NCBI RefSeq assembly: GCF_001542905.1
Contig: NZ_LOAJ01000001.1
Coordinates: forward strand, 2,046,001 to 2,110,000
Direction of reading: 5' to 3'
Origin: Halorubrum aethiopicum
GTDB taxonomy: Archaea > Halobacteriota > Halobacteria > Halobacteriales > Haloferacaceae
DNA length: 64,000 nt
The notes beneath the pieces are model-generated. The model had not been told where the DNA came from. It did not search any database and worked only from the letters and a program-made list of their open reading frames with translations. Shown here one piece after another: positions 10,049-19,114 of the stretch; position 1 is the stretch's first letter; the number at the start of each line of letters is the position of its first letter. The translations under genes were made by a program, and so were the position numbers.

Positions 10049-11773
10049 TCACTCCTCCGTGGCCGCGTCGTCAACTGTGTGGCCCCCGTCCGTCGCCATC
10101 TCCTCGCCGCCGTCGGCGACGACGTCCTCGGCGGTCTCCTGTTGCCCCATCGGTTCGGGGCTGTGACACTGCCGGACGATCCGCTTCGTCTCCAGCGACG
10201 GCTCGTCGGTCGCCATCGAGACGACGATGGTGACGGCGAACACGACGGGGAGCGTGATCAGCGCCGAGCCGATGGCGGGCATCCACTGGGCCAGCCCCGC
10301 CGACAGCGGCGCGTCGAGCGAGCCGATGTACGTCGGGACGATCTGGTTGATCATCGGGATCGACCAGAGCGTCAGCCCGGTCGTCATGCCCGCGAGCGCG
10401 CCCTGCCGGTTGGCGTTCTCCCACCACATCCCCAGGAAGAACATCGGGAACAGGACGGAGCCGGCGAGCGAGAACGCGTACCCCACGAGCGCGGCGATCG
10501 ACGACGCGGGGTTGAGCGCGGCCAGCGTGGTCAACGCGCCCAGCGCGACGATCGACAGGCGGCCGACGAGGATCTGCTGGCGCTGCGTCGCGTCCTCATT
10601 GATGATGTTGGTGTAGATGTCGTGGCTGATGGCCGACGAGCCGGCGATGAACAGCCCGGCGACCGTCGCGATGGCCGCCGCGATGCCGCCCGCCGCGACG
10701 ATGCCGACGAACCAGTCCGGGAGCCCCGACAGCTGCGCCGCCAGCACGACGATGACCTCGCTGGCCGCGCTCGACATTCCGGGGTCGCCGTACGTCGCGC
10801 CGACGTTCTGGCTGTACAGGTCCGTCCCGAACGCCGCGAACGCCGGGGCGCTCCAGTAGAGGATACAGATGAAGAAGAGGCCCCACACGGTCGACCAGCG
10901 GGCCGTCCGCTCGCTCTCGACCGTGTAGAACCGGACGAGCACGTGCGGCAGCCCGCAGGTGCCGACGATCAGCGAGAACGTCGTGGCGACCCAGAGGTAG
11001 TAGCTCGAGGAGGCGAACGGCTCGGAGAACTCGCTGCCGAGCTCGCTTATCAACATCCCGTACTCGAGCTGGGGCAGCACCGTCGAGTAGCCGTTCGTCC
11101 AGCCGACGACGAACAGTCCGACGACGAACGCGAGGATGAGGATGACGTACTGGACCGCCTGGTTCTTCGTCGCGCCGAGCATGCCGGACAGCGTCAGGTA
11201 GCCGACGGTGACGACCATCATGGCGACCACCATCACCTGGTACCCGTCCAGGCCGGGGATGAGCCCGCCGTAGTCGCCGAAGATGTACAGCCCGACGAGC
11301 GCCATCCCCTTCGCCTGCCCGATGGCGTAGACGAAGCCGATGAGGAACGTCGTCACCGCCGCGATGGCGCGCGCGGTGTCGGAGTTGAACCGGTCGCCGA
11401 CGAAGTCCGGAGCCGTGTACTTCCCGAACCGGCGCAGCTGCGCGGCGAGGAAGATGAGCAGGATGAAGTACCCCGTCGTCCAGCCGACGACGAACACGAG
11501 CCCGTAGAACCCCGCGAGCGCGATGGACGCCGCCATCCCGAGGTACGAGGCGGCGGACATCCAGTTCGCGCCGATCGCCATCCCGTTCTCGACGTTCCCG
11601 ATGGACCGGCCGGCGACCCACATGTCGTCGGTGTCGGCGACGCGGAAGATGAAGCCGATCGTGAGGAACAGTCCCAACATCCCGATCACGAGGATCGCCG
11701 GGCCGATCTTGAACGAGATGTCGAGCGCCTCCGGAAGGAGGTCGCTCTGGAGGAGGAGGGAGCTCCCCGTCAT
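10049..11773 (-). CDS. Sodium:solute symporter, probable acetate/monocarboxylate permease large subunit
   Basis: The 574-residue protein has about thirteen transmembrane segments and the SSSF signature, including GRSIGNVENGMAIGANWMSA and a conserved GTCGLPHVLVRFYTV. That last pattern is typical of the ActP-like branch paired with a DUF4212 small subunit. The small-subunit gene overlaps its start by four bases, and acs1 lies just upstream on the same strand, so import of acetate or a related short acid followed by activation to acetyl-CoA is the likely job. The C-terminal 60 residues are acidic and cytoplasmic. Substrate identity is inferred from the neighbours. Confidence 0.9.
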   Translation of the reverse strand: MTGSSLLLQSDLLPEALDISFKIGPAILVIGMLGLFLTIGFIFRVADTDDMWVAGRSIGNVENGMAIGANWMSAASYLGMAASIALAGFYGLVFVVGWTTGYFILLIFLAAQLRRFGKYTAPDFVGDRFNSDTARAIAAVTTFLIGFVYAIGQAKGMALVGLYIFGDYGGLIPGLDGYQVMVVAMMVVTVGYLTLSGMLGATKNQAVQYVILILAFVVGLFVVGWTNGYSTVLPQLEYGMLISELGSEFSEPFASSSYYLWVATTFSLIVGTCGLPHVLVRFYTVESERTARWSTVWGLFFICILYWSAPAFAAFGTDLYSQNVGATYGDPGMSSAASEVIVVLAAQLSGLPDWFVGIVAAGGIAAAIATVAGLFIAGSSAISHDIYTNIINEDATQRQQILVGRLSIVALGALTTLAALNPASSIAALVGYAFSLAGSVLFPMFFLGMWWENANRQGALAGMTTGLTLWSIPMINQIVPTYIGSLDAPLSAGLAQWMPAIGSALITLPVVFAVTIVVSMATDEPSLETKRIVRQCHSPEPMGQQETAEDVVADGGEEMATDGGHTVDDAATEE

Positions 11774-12210
11774 TCGTCGGATCCCCCGTCGGTCGCCGCG
11801 ACGTCAGCCCCGCTCGGGGCGTCCGCTTCGGTGCCGTGGTCGATCCCGTACTTCTCGTCGAGCGCGTCCCGCTTGCGCGAGTACCAGAACGCCAAGATCA
11901 GCGCGCTGGTCGGCGCGCCGAACGCGACGAGGAAGTAGTGGAGCGGGAAGCCTAAGATCGGCATCTGGCTCGTCATCGGGCCGGGCGCGATCCGCGTCAG
12001 CGTCACGGGCCCCCAGATCGCGAGGACCCACACGGCGAACCCCGTCCAGACGATACGGAGGTGATCGCGCATGTACGGCGTGCTCGGGTTGAGGATGTTC
12101 ACCTCCGAGCCGAGGTAGTCGGTCTCCTTGTGTGCCTGTGCGGCTCCGGTCGCGACGCCGCCGTCCGTCTCGGGGGCGTTCGCTCGGTCGTGGGTGTCGT
12201 TATCTGTCAT
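11770..12210 (-). CDS. DUF4212 symporter small subunit
   Basis: The 146-residue protein has two transmembrane helices (about 52-72 and 88-110). Its layout, a membrane-proximal YMRDHLRIVW, PLHYFLVAFGAP between the helices and a C-terminal RDALDEKYGID, matches DUF4212, the small subunit found with SSSF permeases of the acetate/solute class. Its final codons overlap the start of the large subunit, which supports a two-subunit transporter. The first 45 residues are hydrophilic and variable. Confidence 0.9.
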   Translation of the reverse strand: MTDNDTHDRANAPETDGGVATGAAQAHKETDYLGSEVNILNPSTPYMRDHLRIVWTGFAVWVLAIWGPVTLTRIAPGPMTSQMPILGFPLHYFLVAFGAPTSALILAFWYSRKRDALDEKYGIDHGTEADAPSGADVAATDGGSDE

Positions 12211-12341: not shown

Positions 12342-14336
12342 TCAGTCGTCGGCCGCCTTGGCTTGGATCTCCTCGACGATCTCGGGGTTACGAAGCGTGC
12401 TGGTGTTGCCGATCTCCTCGCCGTCGGCGATGTTCTCGAGCAGGCGTCGCATGATCTTCCCGGAGCGGGTCTTCGGGAGGTCGGGGCTGAACACGATCCG
12501 CTCGGGGCGGGCGATCGGGCCGATAGCGTCCTCGACGCCCGCGACGATCCGCTCGCGGAGGTCGTCGTCCCCCTCGTAGCCGTCCTCCGTGATCACGTAC
12601 GCGTAGACGGCCTCGCCCTTGATGTCGTGGTTGCCGCCGACGACGGCGGCCTCGGCGACCCCCTCGACGCCGACGATCGCCGACTCGATCTCCATCGTCC
12701 CGAGCCGGTGGCCGGAGACGTTGATCACGTCGTCGACGCGGCCGAGCACGGTGATGTAGCCGTCCTCGTCGATCTTCGCGCCGTCCTCGGGGAAGTACAC
12801 CCAGTCGTCGGGGTCGTCGCTGTCGGTGTCGGAGTACTCCGCCCAGTACTCCTCGATGAACCGCTCGTCGTTCTTATAGAGGGTCCGCAACATCCCCGGC
12901 CACGGCTTCTGGACCGTGAGGTAGCCGGCCTGTCCCGGCTCGATCTCCTCGCCCGCCGTGTCGAGGATCTGTACGTCGAGTCCGGGGAGCGGCGGCCCGG
13001 CGGAGCCGGGTTTCATGTCCTTGACGCCCGGCAGCGTCGTGATCATCATCCCGCCGGTCTCCGTCTGCCACCAGGTGTCGACGACCGGACACTCCTCGTC
13101 GCCGATGTGCTTGTAGTACCACTTCCAGGCGCGCGGGTTGATCGGCTCGCCGACGGTTCCGAGCAGCCGGAGGCTGGAGAGGTCGTGGGCGGCGGGGTAC
13201 TCCGAGCCCCACTTCATGAACGCGCGGATCGCGGTCGGCGCGGTGTACAGCTGGGTCGCCTCGTACTCCTCGATGATCTCCCAGAGGCGGTCGCGGTCGG
13301 GGTGATCCGGCGTCCCCTCGTACATCATCGTCGTCGTGCCGAGCGCGAGCGGCCCGTACACGATGTAGGAGTGTCCCGTGATCCAGCCGATGTCGGCCGA
13401 ACAGAAGTAGGTGTCCTCGGGCTTGATGTCGAGCACCGCCTGCGAGGTCCACGAGACCCACGAGAGGTAGCCGCCCGTCGTGTGTTTCACGCCCTTGGGT
13501 TTCCCGGTCGTCCCCGAGGTGTACATCAGGAAGAGCATGTCCTCGGCGTCCCGCGTCACGGGCTCGACCTCCGCGCCGGCGTGCGCCTCGACGAGCGCGT
13601 CGTAGTCGTGCTGGTCGTCGCCTAGGTCGTGGCCGAAGTCGTCGTCGTTGGGACCGAGCCGGTCGACGACGATCGTCTCGGTGCCGTGCTCGACGTCCTC
13701 GAGGCCCTCGTTGGCCTTCGAGAGGTGATCGAGCGGGTCGCCGCGGCGGTAGTAGCCGTCACACGTGACGAGGTACTCGGAGTCCGCCGAGTTCATCCGG
13801 GTCGCGAGCGCCTCCGCGGAGAACCCCGCGAAGACGACGCTGTGTGGCGCGCCGATGCGAGCGCACGCCAGCATCGCGACCGGCAGCTCCGGGATCATCG
13901 GCATGTACATCGTGACGACGTCGTCCTCCTCGACGCCCATCTCCCGGAGCGCGGCCGCGAACTCGTTGACCTCGCGGTGGAGCTCCTCGTAGGTGTACGT
14001 CCGGTCCTCCTCGTCGACCGGCTCGCCGACCCACTCGATGGCGGCCTCGTCGCCGCGCTCGTCGAGGTGTCGGTCGAGGCAGTTCGCGGAGGCGTTCAGC
14101 TCGCCGCCCGTGAACCACTCGTAGAACGGCGGGTCGTCGTCGTCGAGCACGCGGTCGTACTCCGTCTCCCAGTCGAGGAGATCGGCCGCCCCCTCCCAGC
14201 ACTCCGGCCAGTTCTCCTCGAACTCCTCGTAGATCCCGGGATCGCTCACGTTCGCCCCCGATACGAAGGAGTCGGACGGCTCGAACACCTCCTGTTCCTG
14301 TAGCCGTGCTTCCAGTTGTCCGTCGTCCTCGGTCAT
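12342..14336 (-). CDS. acs: Acetyl-CoA synthetase (AMP-forming), first copy
   Basis: A 664-residue adenylate-forming enzyme that makes acetyl-CoA from acetate, ATP and CoA through acetyl-AMP. Visible motifs are the P-loop-like YTSGTTGKPKG, the adenine-binding TWWQTETGG, VSGHRLGT at the hinge, and the terminal KTRSGKIMRR whose Lys is the catalytic, acetylation-regulated residue of Acs. The full family length is present. It is the first gene of a minus-strand series acs-DUF4212-symporter-usp, so it probably handles imported acetate. The ATG at 14336 was chosen; an upstream in-frame ATG at 14354 would overlap the promoter. Confidence 0.95.
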   Translation of the reverse strand: MTEDDGQLEARLQEQEVFEPSDSFVSGANVSDPGIYEEFEENWPECWEGAADLLDWETEYDRVLDDDDPPFYEWFTGGELNASANCLDRHLDERGDEAAIEWVGEPVDEEDRTYTYEELHREVNEFAAALREMGVEEDDVVTMYMPMIPELPVAMLACARIGAPHSVVFAGFSAEALATRMNSADSEYLVTCDGYYRRGDPLDHLSKANEGLEDVEHGTETIVVDRLGPNDDDFGHDLGDDQHDYDALVEAHAGAEVEPVTRDAEDMLFLMYTSGTTGKPKGVKHTTGGYLSWVSWTSQAVLDIKPEDTYFCSADIGWITGHSYIVYGPLALGTTTMMYEGTPDHPDRDRLWEIIEEYEATQLYTAPTAIRAFMKWGSEYPAAHDLSSLRLLGTVGEPINPRAWKWYYKHIGDEECPVVDTWWQTETGGMMITTLPGVKDMKPGSAGPPLPGLDVQILDTAGEEIEPGQAGYLTVQKPWPGMLRTLYKNDERFIEEYWAEYSDTDSDDPDDWVYFPEDGAKIDEDGYITVLGRVDDVINVSGHRLGTMEIESAIVGVEGVAEAAVVGGNHDIKGEAVYAYVITEDGYEGDDDLRERIVAGVEDAIGPIARPERIVFSPDLPKTRSGKIMRRLLENIADGEEIGNTSTLRNPEIVEEIQAKAADD

Positions 14337-14363: not shown

Positions 14364-14389
14364 CTACATAAACAACCACCCTAAATAGG
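14364..14389 (-). promoter_or_regulatory. Promoter region of acs1 with a CCTA-TAGG palindrome
   Basis: On the minus strand GTTTATGTAG (14364-14373) is a TATA-like element about 32 bases before the acs1 ATG. Immediately upstream, at 14380-14389, is the palindrome CCTA-AA-TAGG, in the position of the BRE or an activator site. The Bat-type regulator gene lies directly upstream and is an obvious candidate to act here. Confidence 0.45.
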
Positions 14390-14437
14390 AAAAATCGTGA
14401 AGGATACGGTCGAGATCCGAGTCGGTATCGCGGGAGT

Positions 14438-16195
14438 TCACGGGCGATCCCGCGCGTCGCGCTCCTCGAAGAGGGTCTCGAGGAGCGCCCGCTCCGCCTT
14501 CCGGAGGTGGTTGTGGAAGGTGGGCGAGGAGACGTCCATCGCGTCCGCGACCTCCTCGGCCGTGCTGCCGCGCGGCCAGTCGAAGTAGCCGCTGTGGTAC
14601 GCCGCGGACAGCGTCGCCCACTGGCGGTCGGTGAGCCGGTCGATCACCCCCTCGCGCAACGCCGACTCGGTCCGCGGCGATCGCGCGATCGACTCCTTGC
14701 TCACGAGCCGGGCGTCGGAAAAGGCCTCCCGGAGGTCGTCGGCGATCGGTCGCACGTCGGTCCCGTCCGGCAGGTCGGCGACGACCCGGACCCGGCCCTC
14801 CTCGGCCACCGCCTCCCGGACCGCCGCGCCGTGGCCCGTCAGCGCGCGGACGATCGACCCGCCGGTCGCTCGGGCCGACACCGCACAGCCGTCCTCGCGC
14901 GTCTCGATCACGCGCAGTTCGGCGACGCCCTCTGCGTCGTCGACCGCGTCCGCGACCGCCTGCGGGCCCGTCCCCATCACGGAGAGGTACCACCGCGAGG
15001 CCGATCCCGACACGGCGACCGTGGACTCGAGTTCGATCCGACAGTCGAGCGCGGCGCTCGTCGACGCGAGGAACGCGTCCGCCGCCGCGGTGTGGAACTC
15101 GACCTCGGTGACCGCGTCGGAGTGGAGCAGGTCCCGCCAGCGCCCCGCCGTGACCGCCCAGCCGAGACACCGACCGAGCGCCTCGGCCTCCCGACGCTCC
15201 GCGGGGCGCGCCGGCGCGCCGTCCGGGAGGAGCCGGAGCGTCCCGTAGGTCGTCTCCCGGTGACCGATCGGGACGGAGAGCCAGCGGTCGTCCTCGAGGA
15301 CCGACTCCGATCGCTCGTCGGTCGGCCCCGTCTCTTCCGTCGACGGTCCGCGACGGACTTGAGCCTCCCGCCACCGGTCCGTCTCGGACACCCGATCGAC
15401 GACGGTCTCGAACAGGGCCTCCCGGTCCGGAACCCGGGCCACCGCCTCGAACGCGCCTACGAGCGTGAGCGTCGGATCCTCGCGAGTTCCGCGGTCGGTG
15501 GGACCCTCGCGGTCCTCGGTCGGGTCACCGGAACCGACGCGGTCGCCGTCGTCGTCGCGGTCACCGTCGTCGTCCTTGCCGCCGTCGTCGCCGGACCCGC
15601 CCGCGACGGCCGCGGCGATGGCCTCCCCGTCGAGCGGGTCGAGGTGAGCGTCCAGCGCGTCCAGCGTCTCCCAGCCGCCGGCCTCGCGGACGACGTGCGG
15701 GTCGACGCCGCGGTCGACGAGGAGGCGTCGGGCGAAGGTCCGCCGGAGCGTTCGCGGCGTGACCGACGACAGCGCCGGGTCGTCGCGGCGCTCCCGCGCC
15801 CGCTCCGCGGTCTCGCGCACCAGCATCTGGACGCGGCGCGGGGAGACGCCGACGAGAGGGTCGCCTGCGGCGAGTCCCTCGCTCTCCGCGTATCGTCGGA
15901 GGTCGGCCGCGAGCGACGCCGGAACGACCGTCTCGCGGTCGATCGGGACGGCGTCGTCCGCCGCGTCGACGTCCGTCTCCGCGCGTTCCGGTTCCGCGGA
16001 CCCCTCCGCCGGTACCGCGAGGAGGAACGTCCCCTCGGCCGCCGGCGACTCTCCGAGGTCGCACGGGCGGACGCGGGTGATCTCGGCGGTCCGCAGGCCG
16101 GCCTCTCCCGCCAGTCGGACGACGACCGCGGCGCGGTACGTCCCCGCCGCCGTCACGAGCGCGTCGTACGAGTCGGCGGGGAGCGCCTCGCTCAT
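14438..16195 (-). CDS. Bat-type HTH_10 regulator with an N-terminal tyrosine-recombinase-like domain
   Basis: The 585-residue protein has four parts. Residues 5-190 resemble the catalytic domain of tyrosine recombinases: box I AGLRTAEI with Arg35, box II TPRTLRRTF with Arg151, and GGWE with Trp175. The usual box II His is Arg148, and the residue nine after Trp175, where the nucleophilic Tyr belongs, is His184, so it should not cut DNA. An Asp/Gly linker (200-240) follows, then a GAF-like domain (about 245-350), a bacterio-opsin-activator middle domain (about 355-500) and an HTH_10 domain (about 515-570, with YFDWPRGSTAEEVA). It is likely a transcription factor. It lies 101 bases upstream of acs1, on the same strand, suggesting control of acetate genes. 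Confidence 0.88.
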   Translation of the reverse strand: MSEALPADSYDALVTAAGTYRAAVVVRLAGEAGLRTAEITRVRPCDLGESPAAEGTFLLAVPAEGSAEPERAETDVDAADDAVPIDRETVVPASLAADLRRYAESEGLAAGDPLVGVSPRRVQMLVRETAERARERRDDPALSSVTPRTLRRTFARRLLVDRGVDPHVVREAGGWETLDALDAHLDPLDGEAIAAAVAGGSGDDGGKDDDGDRDDDGDRVGSGDPTEDREGPTDRGTREDPTLTLVGAFEAVARVPDREALFETVVDRVSETDRWREAQVRRGPSTEETGPTDERSESVLEDDRWLSVPIGHRETTYGTLRLLPDGAPARPAERREAEALGRCLGWAVTAGRWRDLLHSDAVTEVEFHTAAADAFLASTSAALDCRIELESTVAVSGSASRWYLSVMGTGPQAVADAVDDAEGVAELRVIETREDGCAVSARATGGSIVRALTGHGAAVREAVAEEGRVRVVADLPDGTDVRPIADDLREAFSDARLVSKESIARSPRTESALREGVIDRLTDRQWATLSAAYHSGYFDWPRGSTAEEVADAMDVSSPTFHNHLRKAERALLETLFEERDARDRP

Positions 16196-16353: not shown

Positions 16354-16376
16354 CGAAACGCTATCGATACGTTTCG
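16354..16376. repeat. CGAAACG/CGTTTCG inverted repeat at the vapC stop codon
   Basis: CGAAACG (16354-16360) and CGTTTCG (16370-16376) are perfect complements around a nine-base centre that contains the vapC stop codon. It could fold at the 3' end of the vapBC mRNA, or serve as another GTTTCG-type site for the regulator gene downstream. No T-run follows. Confidence 0.5.
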
Positions 16377-16768
16377 TGTGTGACGCCCGGGACGTCTCCG
16401 AAATGCCGATCACCGGCGAGAACGGGCTCGTCACGCTCCAGCGCGGTCGCGGCGATCACTGCGTCGGCTTTTCCGATCCCCGACCCCTCGTCGCCGTCGG
16501 TATCGGCCATCCGCTCGCCGAGCAGCCGTCCGGCACGTCGGGAAATACTCGGGGTCAGATCCACGAGCGGGTAGGAGTCGAGCACGGCCTCCACCCTTCG
16601 ACGCTCTTCGCGTGTGCCGGCGACCTTTCCGACGCCGATGTACAGCTCCAGCACGGTCATCGACGGCACGACGAGCGGAACGCCTTCCGCTTCGAGCTCG
16701 CGCTCCTTCATGACGGCCGCGTCGACGTCGTCGATGACGTCCAAAACGAAACTCGTGTCGACGATCAT
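16361..16768 (-). CDS. vapC: VapC-type PIN-domain endoribonuclease toxin
   Basis: The 135-residue protein is a PIN domain with the acidic metal-binding residues in the expected order: Asp4 in IVDTSF, Glu41 in LELYIG, Asp102 in KADAVIAA and Asp120 in AGDRHF. PIN toxins of VapBC pairs cleave tRNA or other RNA when released from their antitoxin. Its start overlaps the antitoxin stop by four bases, the usual antitoxin-first arrangement. The catalytic set is complete, so it is probably active. The pair sits between the two acs genes in the same orientation. Confidence 0.92.
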   Translation of the reverse strand: MIVDTSFVLDVIDDVDAAVMKERELEAEGVPLVVPSMTVLELYIGVGKVAGTREERRRVEAVLDSYPLVDLTPSISRRAGRLLGERMADTDGDEGSGIGKADAVIAATALERDEPVLAGDRHFGDVPGVTHETYR

Positions 16769-16995
16769 TCGAACCGCTCCGCAACGTCGCGAACTTCGTC
16801 GCGGTCGGTCCGGTCGGCCGCCTCGATGGCGTCCCGCATTTCGCTCACTTGGTCTTCGTCGAAGACGCCGCGAAGGTCTCGGAGCGACCGTCCGCCGATC
16901 AGCCGTTTCACGGCGTCGCTGAATGATTCGTCGTCGCGTTTGTTGGCCTTGATCCGTTCGTACACGTCGTCGTCGAGGCGGATCTGGTGTGACAT
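16765..16995 (-). CDS. vapB: VapB-type antitoxin
   Basis: This 76-residue protein starts SHQIRLDDDVYERIKANKRD, a ribbon-helix-helix-like N-terminus of the DUF217/VapB group common in euryarchaea. It ends in an acidic helix that would wrap the toxin. The sequence ESFSDAVKRLIGG is characteristic of that group. It is translated from the ATG at 16995 and overlaps vapC. It probably represses its own promoter. Confidence 0.88.
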   Translation of the reverse strand: MSHQIRLDDDVYERIKANKRDDESFSDAVKRLIGGRSLRDLRGVFDEDQVSEMRDAIEAADRTDRDEVRDVAERFE

Positions 16996-17058: not shown

Positions 17059-19017
<1,959 letters not shown>

Positions 19018-19114
19018 GTGTGTACTCCAGACCGGAGGACCGTATACTTTGTCCGACCGTCCGCCGAGCGCCCCTCGATCCGCTCGTGTCTCCTGACCGC
19101 TTTCGTCCCCAACA

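Follow-up and report, generated by a model that had tools for sequence, protein, structure and literature searches.

A Bat-type protein with a degraded tyrosine-recombinase domain as a candidate acetate regulator in Halobacteria

The window analyzed here, a stretch of 64,000 nucleotides from the genome of Halorubrum aethiopicum, encodes a 585-aa protein in which a tyrosine-recombinase CAT domain precedes the domains of a Bat-type regulator. We propose, with a probability of roughly 0.7, that this protein is dedicated to regulating, and most likely to activating, the adjacent acs1-DUF4212-actP operon, that its HTH_10 domain acts on a conserved element upstream of acs1, and that its recombinase domain is non-catalytic and exapted. 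The basis of this proposal is computational and consists of the fold, homology, the degraded active site, the single origin of the fusion, synteny, the promoter element, and the co-occurrence of the gene with the element.

Results

The regulator gene and its acetate locus

The open reading frame of the regulator, which a preliminary description of this DNA had placed at 14438-16195 with no strand given, was recovered there on the minus strand. Its domains and the neighboring genes are as follows.

14438..16195, minus strand: Bat-type regulator, 585 aa, with N-terminal recombinase CAT domain (ORF call, Pfam, models)
15599..16183, minus strand: tyrosine-recombinase CAT-like domain, residues 5-199, without a preceding core-binding domain (profiles, predicted structure)
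15119..15472, minus strand: GAF-fold domain, residues 242-359 (predicted fold; Pfam in relatives)
14654..15118, minus strand: BAT domain PF15915, residues 360-514 (Pfam)
14480..14635, minus strand: HTH_10 DNA-binding domain PF04967, residues 521-572 (Pfam)
12342..14336, minus strand: acs1, acetate-CoA ligase, probable ATG at 14336 (ORF call, annotation)
11770..12210, minus strand: DUF4212, sodium/solute symporter small subunit (domain match)
10049..11773, minus strand: actP-like sodium/solute symporter, VC_2705 family (domain match)
17059..19017, minus strand: acs2, second acetate-CoA ligase, upstream of the regulator (ORF call)

The preliminary description had assigned GAF, Bat-middle, and HTH_10 domains to this protein. 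The latter two were recovered by Pfam above the curated cut-offs (BAT, 1.4e-37, 129.4 bits; HTH_10, 3.6e-20, 72 bits), and the BAT domain of the full-length model matches Ta1207 (Z 11.4). The GAF domain had no Pfam match in the window protein and was recovered through its predicted fold, in which residues 242-359 of the full-length model match the KdpD GAF domain (Z 10.5); a Pfam match to GAF was found in 24 of the 41 family members scanned. With BAT, a C-terminal HTH_10, and GAF by predicted fold, the window protein fits a Bat-type (BAT/HTH_10) regulator. The median dN/dS among Halorubrum species was 0.28 for the N-domain, 0.31 for GAF, 0.22 for BAT, 0.06 for HTH_10, and 1.1 for the linker; the N-domain is thus under purifying selection, which indicates that it has been kept for a function.

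It had also been claimed that the regulator lies beside acs. The gene does adjoin acs, and its position can be given more exactly as inside a conserved acetate locus. In all 80 of the loci that were found by the N-domain alone, acs adjoins the gene, and in 52 of the 80 the exact order acs-bat-acs-DUF4212-actP is present on one strand. Further loci, together with annotated plasmids of Haloferax and Haladaptatus, have the same arrangement of acetate genes. In the window, a VapB/VapC-like toxin-antitoxin pair is located between acs2 and the regulator (16361-16995, minus strand; Pfam VAPB_antitox 5e-14, PIN 2e-14); a VapC-like match was seen at the same place in the Halorubrum halodurans locus (L159), and most relatives are without the pair.

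When the whole protein and the N-domain profile were used as queries, the fusion was found in most families of Halobacteria. No fusion was found with the N-domain profile outside Halobacteria in the phylum sample, where the two matches outside the order were proteins of 275-280 aa. When the fusion and DUF4212 were tallied from hand-transcribed lists for 145 genomes, both were present in 90 and neither in 37, with the fusion only in 10 and DUF4212 only in 8. Partial BLAST matches had suggested a Natrialbaceae type without the CAT domain. This was rejected, as the domain is present and is followed by an extra segment before GAF. In these Natrialbaceae-type orthologues (L080-L083, L086, L087, L090), the segment between CAT and GAF appears PAS-like by eye.

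The fold of the N-domain

It is virtually certain that the N-domain is homologous to the CAT domain of tyrosine recombinases, as the preliminary description had held. For the window protein alone, the Pfam match to Phage_integrase (residues 125-178, 2.3e-5) scored 24.7 bits against a cut-off of 27.1, and NCBIfam gave a partial match to XerA (residues 87-178, 1.5e-6). Among 31 diverse N-domains of the family, 30 matched Phage_integrase, the best of them at 2.7e-17. A profile of the N-domain family, when compared with PDB sequences, matched Pyrococcus XerA 4a8e with an E value of 9.1e-19 over profile positions 1-166 of 175 and Thermoplasma XerA 5hxy at 2.1e-12, the matches to XerA spanning box I to the Tyr region. 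The fold, for which the preliminary description had proposed a structure prediction as a test, was borne out by an AlphaFold2 model of the N-domain built from 56 sequences (pLDDT 91.2, pTM 0.85), whose top structural matches were XerA 5hxy (Z 18.4, rmsd 4.1, 165 aligned) and XerA 4a8e (Z 16.9, rmsd 2.4, 143 aligned), followed by IntI4, Tn1549 Int, XerH, Cre, and lambda Int. The window protein begins directly with the CAT domain, which starts at residue 1-5, and the core-binding domain is absent.

Catalytic residues

Orthologues were aligned in two sets that overlap in organisms: a 79-sequence set (78 orthologues plus the window protein), which was assembled by means of the peptide V[ST][PAE]RR[VL]QM, and a 69-sequence set from a genome search, which was collected without that peptide. 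The five residues of the active site that had been named previously are all at the positions then assigned.

16091..16093, minus strand: R35, box I Arg (RI), kept in 66/79 orthologues (alignment)
15752..15754, minus strand: R148, box II His position; His in 1/79 and 5/69 orthologues (alignments)
15743..15745, minus strand: R151, box II Arg (RII), invariant in 79/79 (alignment)
15671..15673, minus strand: W175, His/Trp position, kept in 75/79 (alignment)
15644..15646, minus strand: H184, nucleophilic Tyr position (W+9); Tyr in 35/79 (alignment)

The window protein therefore has the two catalytic arginines (R35, R151) and the His/Trp position (W175) intact and is without the beta-hairpin Lys, the box II His (R148), and the nucleophilic Tyr (H184). 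The suggestion that the Tyr might be lost throughout the homologues was contradicted, since Tyr is kept in 42 members of the 69-sequence set, all of which have R151 and 5 of which have the box II His, and in 35 members of the 79-sequence set, where the other residues are Leu (18), Phe (12), His (5), and others. The loss of Tyr in the window protein is recent, because His, Phe, and Tyr all occur at this position in the close Halorubrum group. A tree built from the C-terminal part of the protein shows at least 9 changes between Tyr and non-Tyr and at least 14 changes in the His column. Members of the Halalkalicoccus type (L133; relatives L041, L084, L085, and L088) have both the box II His and the Tyr, with only the hairpin Lys missing.

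Unlike the scattered loss of the Tyr, the loss of the Lys is common to the whole fusion family. Lys was found at the hairpin position in none of the 79 members, the one Lys seen being elsewhere, in a Halorubrum insert. R35 was lost in 13 of the 79, including all Haloferax sampled, and phosphate binding by the arginine pocket therefore cannot be universal. The description of the domain as catalytically dead holds in that the full catalytic set is absent from every fusion-family protein examined, but its basis has to be changed: catalysis is judged to be lost because the hairpin Lys and, nearly always, the box II His are missing, rather than because of His184. Judged from these residues, the fusion-family proteins very probably carry out no recombination.

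Probable origin from stand-alone integrases

The nearest sequence relatives of the N-domain are stand-alone CAT-only integrases of about 200 aa, which occur in many haloarchaea and are without GAF, BAT, and HTH_10. The genome that contains the window encodes one of them, a 204-aa protein (G000:C1:1842567-1843103; L186:5980-6591, minus strand) that was the second match of the family profile in this genome (4.3e-52). In 15 of 15 stand-alone integrases, R49, K78, H149, R152, W176, and Y185 are invariant. Their hairpin, GKDTTGxGGKPR, is shortened in the fusion family (e.g., ES-GGGTREAYLP) and is replaced by variable acidic stretches in the Halorubrum fusions. In a 75-row tree, all 56 fusion N-domains were on one side of a branch with an SH-aLRT of 99.6, and the stand-alone integrases were nearest to them.

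The simplest history for these sequences would be one fusion event and subsequent decay, for which we infer the root and the direction of the tree. A CAT-only haloarchaeal integrase would have been fused once to become the N-domain of a regulator; the Lys-bearing hairpin would have been lost at or near the fusion, the box II His next, and the Tyr repeatedly; and the phosphate-binding arginines would have been retained, with an invariant RRxQM acquired in the putative DNA-recognition helix. A search of viral contigs by tblastn detected no relative of the fusion family, and the stand-alone integrase of the home genome had no match in the phage collection, so that a viral source is not supported. 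No tRNA gene is present within 12.5 kb around this integrase gene (G000:C1:1842567-1843103).

The motif in the helix before box II

The fusion family has a specific motif in the following position.

15824..15847, minus strand: VSPRRVQM, residues 117-124, family-specific motif, helix before box II (alignment)

Positions that are invariant in the fusion family but not in the stand-alone integrases include R21, R120, R121, Q123, M124, and R132. Among the 39 diverse rows listed of the 69-sequence set, R120, R121, and M124 are present in all 39 and Q123 in 35, while the invariance of RRxQM in the 79-sequence set is partly built in, because that set was collected with the motif. In Cre-type CAT domains, the helix before box II reads the major groove. 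By alignment, the VSPRRVQM helix presumably corresponds to this recognition helix (cf. Cre Arg259). We consider the chances that the CAT domain contacts DNA to be about even.

The promoter element before acs1

Comparison of promoters identified two features upstream of acs1.

14381..14400, minus strand: conserved element TCACGATTTTTCCTATTTAG, candidate binding site, upstream of acs1 (promoter comparison)
14366..14373, minus strand: TATA-box-like GTTTATGT of the acs1 promoter (promoter comparison)

In 16 Halorubrum loci, TCACGATTTTTCGTATTTAG is located directly upstream of the TATA box GTTTATRT, between the regulator stop and acs1. The 19-base Halorubrum version of the element failed as a class-wide form outside the genus, and a shorter core pattern (TTtNNANANYTAG, 6-11 bases, YTTA) held. 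Of 123 regulator-bearing loci, 113 have this core pattern no more than 80 bases from the acs1 start, as do 55 of 59 genus-level groups; shuffled sequences gave a mean of 0.66 and a largest value of 3. These counts are descriptive, because the same promoters had served to draw up the pattern by eye and the genomes are related and not independent. Haloferax loci also carry the element. The core pattern was found in none of the 130 regions upstream of acs2.

Genomes without the regulator provide an independent test of the element. In such genomes the element was found in 1 of 13 acs1 homologues and in 0 of 8 DUF4212-actP operons; acs1 still precedes 4 of the 8, and two genomes are shared by the 13-gene and 8-operon sets. 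In addition, when the home genome was searched for the long form of the element at up to 3 mismatches, a single site was found. Being scarce without the regulator, absent before acs2, and confined to one site in the home genome, the element is not a general promoter part. At one locus without a regulator (L210, genome G082), the acs1 promoter matches the element pattern, possibly as a remnant after gene loss.

Upstream of acs2, 16 Halorubrum loci share a separate and almost invariant sequence, CGGACAAAGTATAC, which precedes the ATG by about 20-30 bases (at about 19030-19060 of the window, minus strand). From its sequence and position, it is likely a TATA-type acs2 promoter unlike that of acs1.

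It has been reported that, in Haloferax volcanii, a transcript of acs7-HVO_A0155-ssf-uspA, which starts with the matching acs, is made only on acetate (PMC7746861). No regulator is named in that report for this acetate-specific transcript, and the acetate literature searched named none for acetate induction in haloarchaea. A search that was thin on subscription journals found no paper on HVO_A0157, the H. volcanii orthologue by synteny.

Discussion

We consider it likely that the protein regulates the acs1-DUF4212-actP operon through the element, and the following mechanism may be envisaged. The operon would serve the uptake and activation of acetate. A metabolic signal would be sensed by the GAF domain, and HTH_10, as in Bat, possibly together with the CAT domain, would then bind the element beside the TATA box of acs1 and recruit basal factors, thereby turning on the transcription of acs1-DUF4212-actP. 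The CAT domain would now be a non-catalytic DNA-binding clamp or an assembly module. Binding of the element by the protein, activation, the GAF signal, and the role of the CAT domain are what we infer from the computational results; the association of gene and element alone does not distinguish binding by HTH_10 from binding by CAT, or activation from repression.

The CAT domain may instead act off the DNA, with HTH_10 alone reading the element and the arginine pocket either binding a phosphate-bearing ligand (CoA, AMP, or acetyl-adenylate) or serving dimerization. This is possible although unlikely. A phosphoryl ligand would be equally well accommodated by the invariant R87 and R151 together with the retained Trp, the gene presumably regulates acetate activation, which runs via acetyl-AMP and CoA, the core-binding domain that usually forms the other part of the DNA clamp is missing, and Bat, which is without a recombinase domain, activates by its C-terminal HTH (PMC3184054). 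However, the most family-specific invariant residues (R120, R121, Q123, and M124) are in the helix aligned with the recognition helix and not in the phosphate pocket, and the box I Arg is not universal.

A reading in which the conserved element belongs to promoters in general or is bound by another factor, with the Bat-type protein regulating something else, appears rather doubtful. The element does abut the TATA box, in a region that TFB contacts as well, and Bat-like HTH_10 proteins are numerous in haloarchaea, with at least 10 matches in most genomes. Nevertheless, the element is missing from nearly all acs1 and DUF4212-actP promoters without the regulator (1/13 and 0/8), from all acs2 upstream regions, and from the rest of the home genome, which speaks against a general promoter part.

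Improbable, in our estimation, is a reading in which the dead CAT domain is itself the main reader of the promoter, or bridges two DNA sites in a non-catalytic recombinase-like synapse. If the synapse were true, for instance between the acs2 and acs1 promoters, it would be a case of a recombinase assembly mechanism controlling the transcription of a cellular archaeal operon.

In some recombinases, activity is compatible with a different residue at the His or the Lys position, and many members of the fusion family have the Tyr, both Arg, and the Trp, with the Halalkalicoccus type also having the box II His. Even so, residual cleavage or recombination of DNA by the protein in certain lineages, such as for switching its own promoter, is highly improbable: the hairpin Lys is missing in all members examined whereas the stand-alone relatives keep the full set, the Tyr changes state at least 9 times while the N-domain is under purifying selection, the order of the locus is static, and MrpR, which has Lys and Tyr, showed no recombination (PMC10516654).

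The domain architecture is already published, as is evident from the accessible part of PMC8371274. In the literature searched, we found no description of the loss of catalysis, the origin from stand-alone integrases, the acetate locus, or the promoter element. With a dedicated acetate regulator of this kind, what had been one entry among the listed archaeal integrases would become a regulator of acetate use that can be tested, that occurs across most Halobacteria, and that has a candidate binding site. The family would also represent a traceable exaptation from enzyme to regulator, as its intact stand-alone relatives are encoded alongside it in the same genomes and one can follow how residues were lost, from the Lys hairpin to the His and then repeatedly the Tyr. 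In addition, integrase labels on such proteins will distort counts of mobile elements that are drawn from databases.

Comparison with known systems

XerA (4a8e, 5hxy) has the same CAT fold and related sequence, but it is active, with a core-binding domain and a full active site. The stand-alone haloarchaeal integrases, although the closest relatives, have the full R-K-H-R-W-Y set and none of GAF, BAT, and HTH_10. The Crypton-derived domesticated genes are eukaryotic, and their domain partners are unrelated to those of the window protein. In these animal genes, according to the accessible part of PMC3212892, a recombinase domain has likewise been reused by the host.

Among archaeal tyrosine recombinases, the accessible part of Badel et al. 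2021 (PMC8371274) gives the architecture Phage_integrase-(GAF_2)-BAT-HTH_10 as fam30-04, with 30% identity over 60% of the protein as the criterion. The window protein has this domain order, with Phage_integrase below the cut-off in the protein itself and confirmed with its relatives, and with GAF_2 being optional; it very probably belongs to fam30-04. In the same part of that source, fam30-04 is listed as an integrase family, whereas here it is a predicted regulator with a degraded active site, and the lost catalytic residues, the acetate locus, the promoter element, and the origin of fam30-04 are not discussed there.

Bat, the Halobacterium bacterio-opsin activator, has GAF and a C-terminal HTH (PMC3184054). 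The window protein resembles it in these domains and in its proposed action just upstream of a TATA box, here at the candidate element. In contrast, Bat has a PAS/PAC domain and no recombinase domain, and it controls bop, brp, and crtB1 (PMC3184054, PMC1447603).

MrpR (YopR) of the Bacillus phage SPbeta has a recombinase fold without recombination and is a proven DNA-binding transcription repressor (PMC10516654). MrpR and SroF of phi3T are structural matches of the window N-domain (Z 12.5-14.6), and a recombinase fold with an incomplete active site is common to MrpR and the window protein. The residues lost are different, however: MrpR keeps the core-binding domain, the Lys, and the Tyr and has lost RI, the His, and the Trp, whereas the window family has lost the Lys and the His, keeps RII and the Trp, and has no core-binding domain. 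Furthermore, MrpR is a phage repressor without GAF, BAT, and HTH_10, whereas the protein described here is encoded by a cellular gene.
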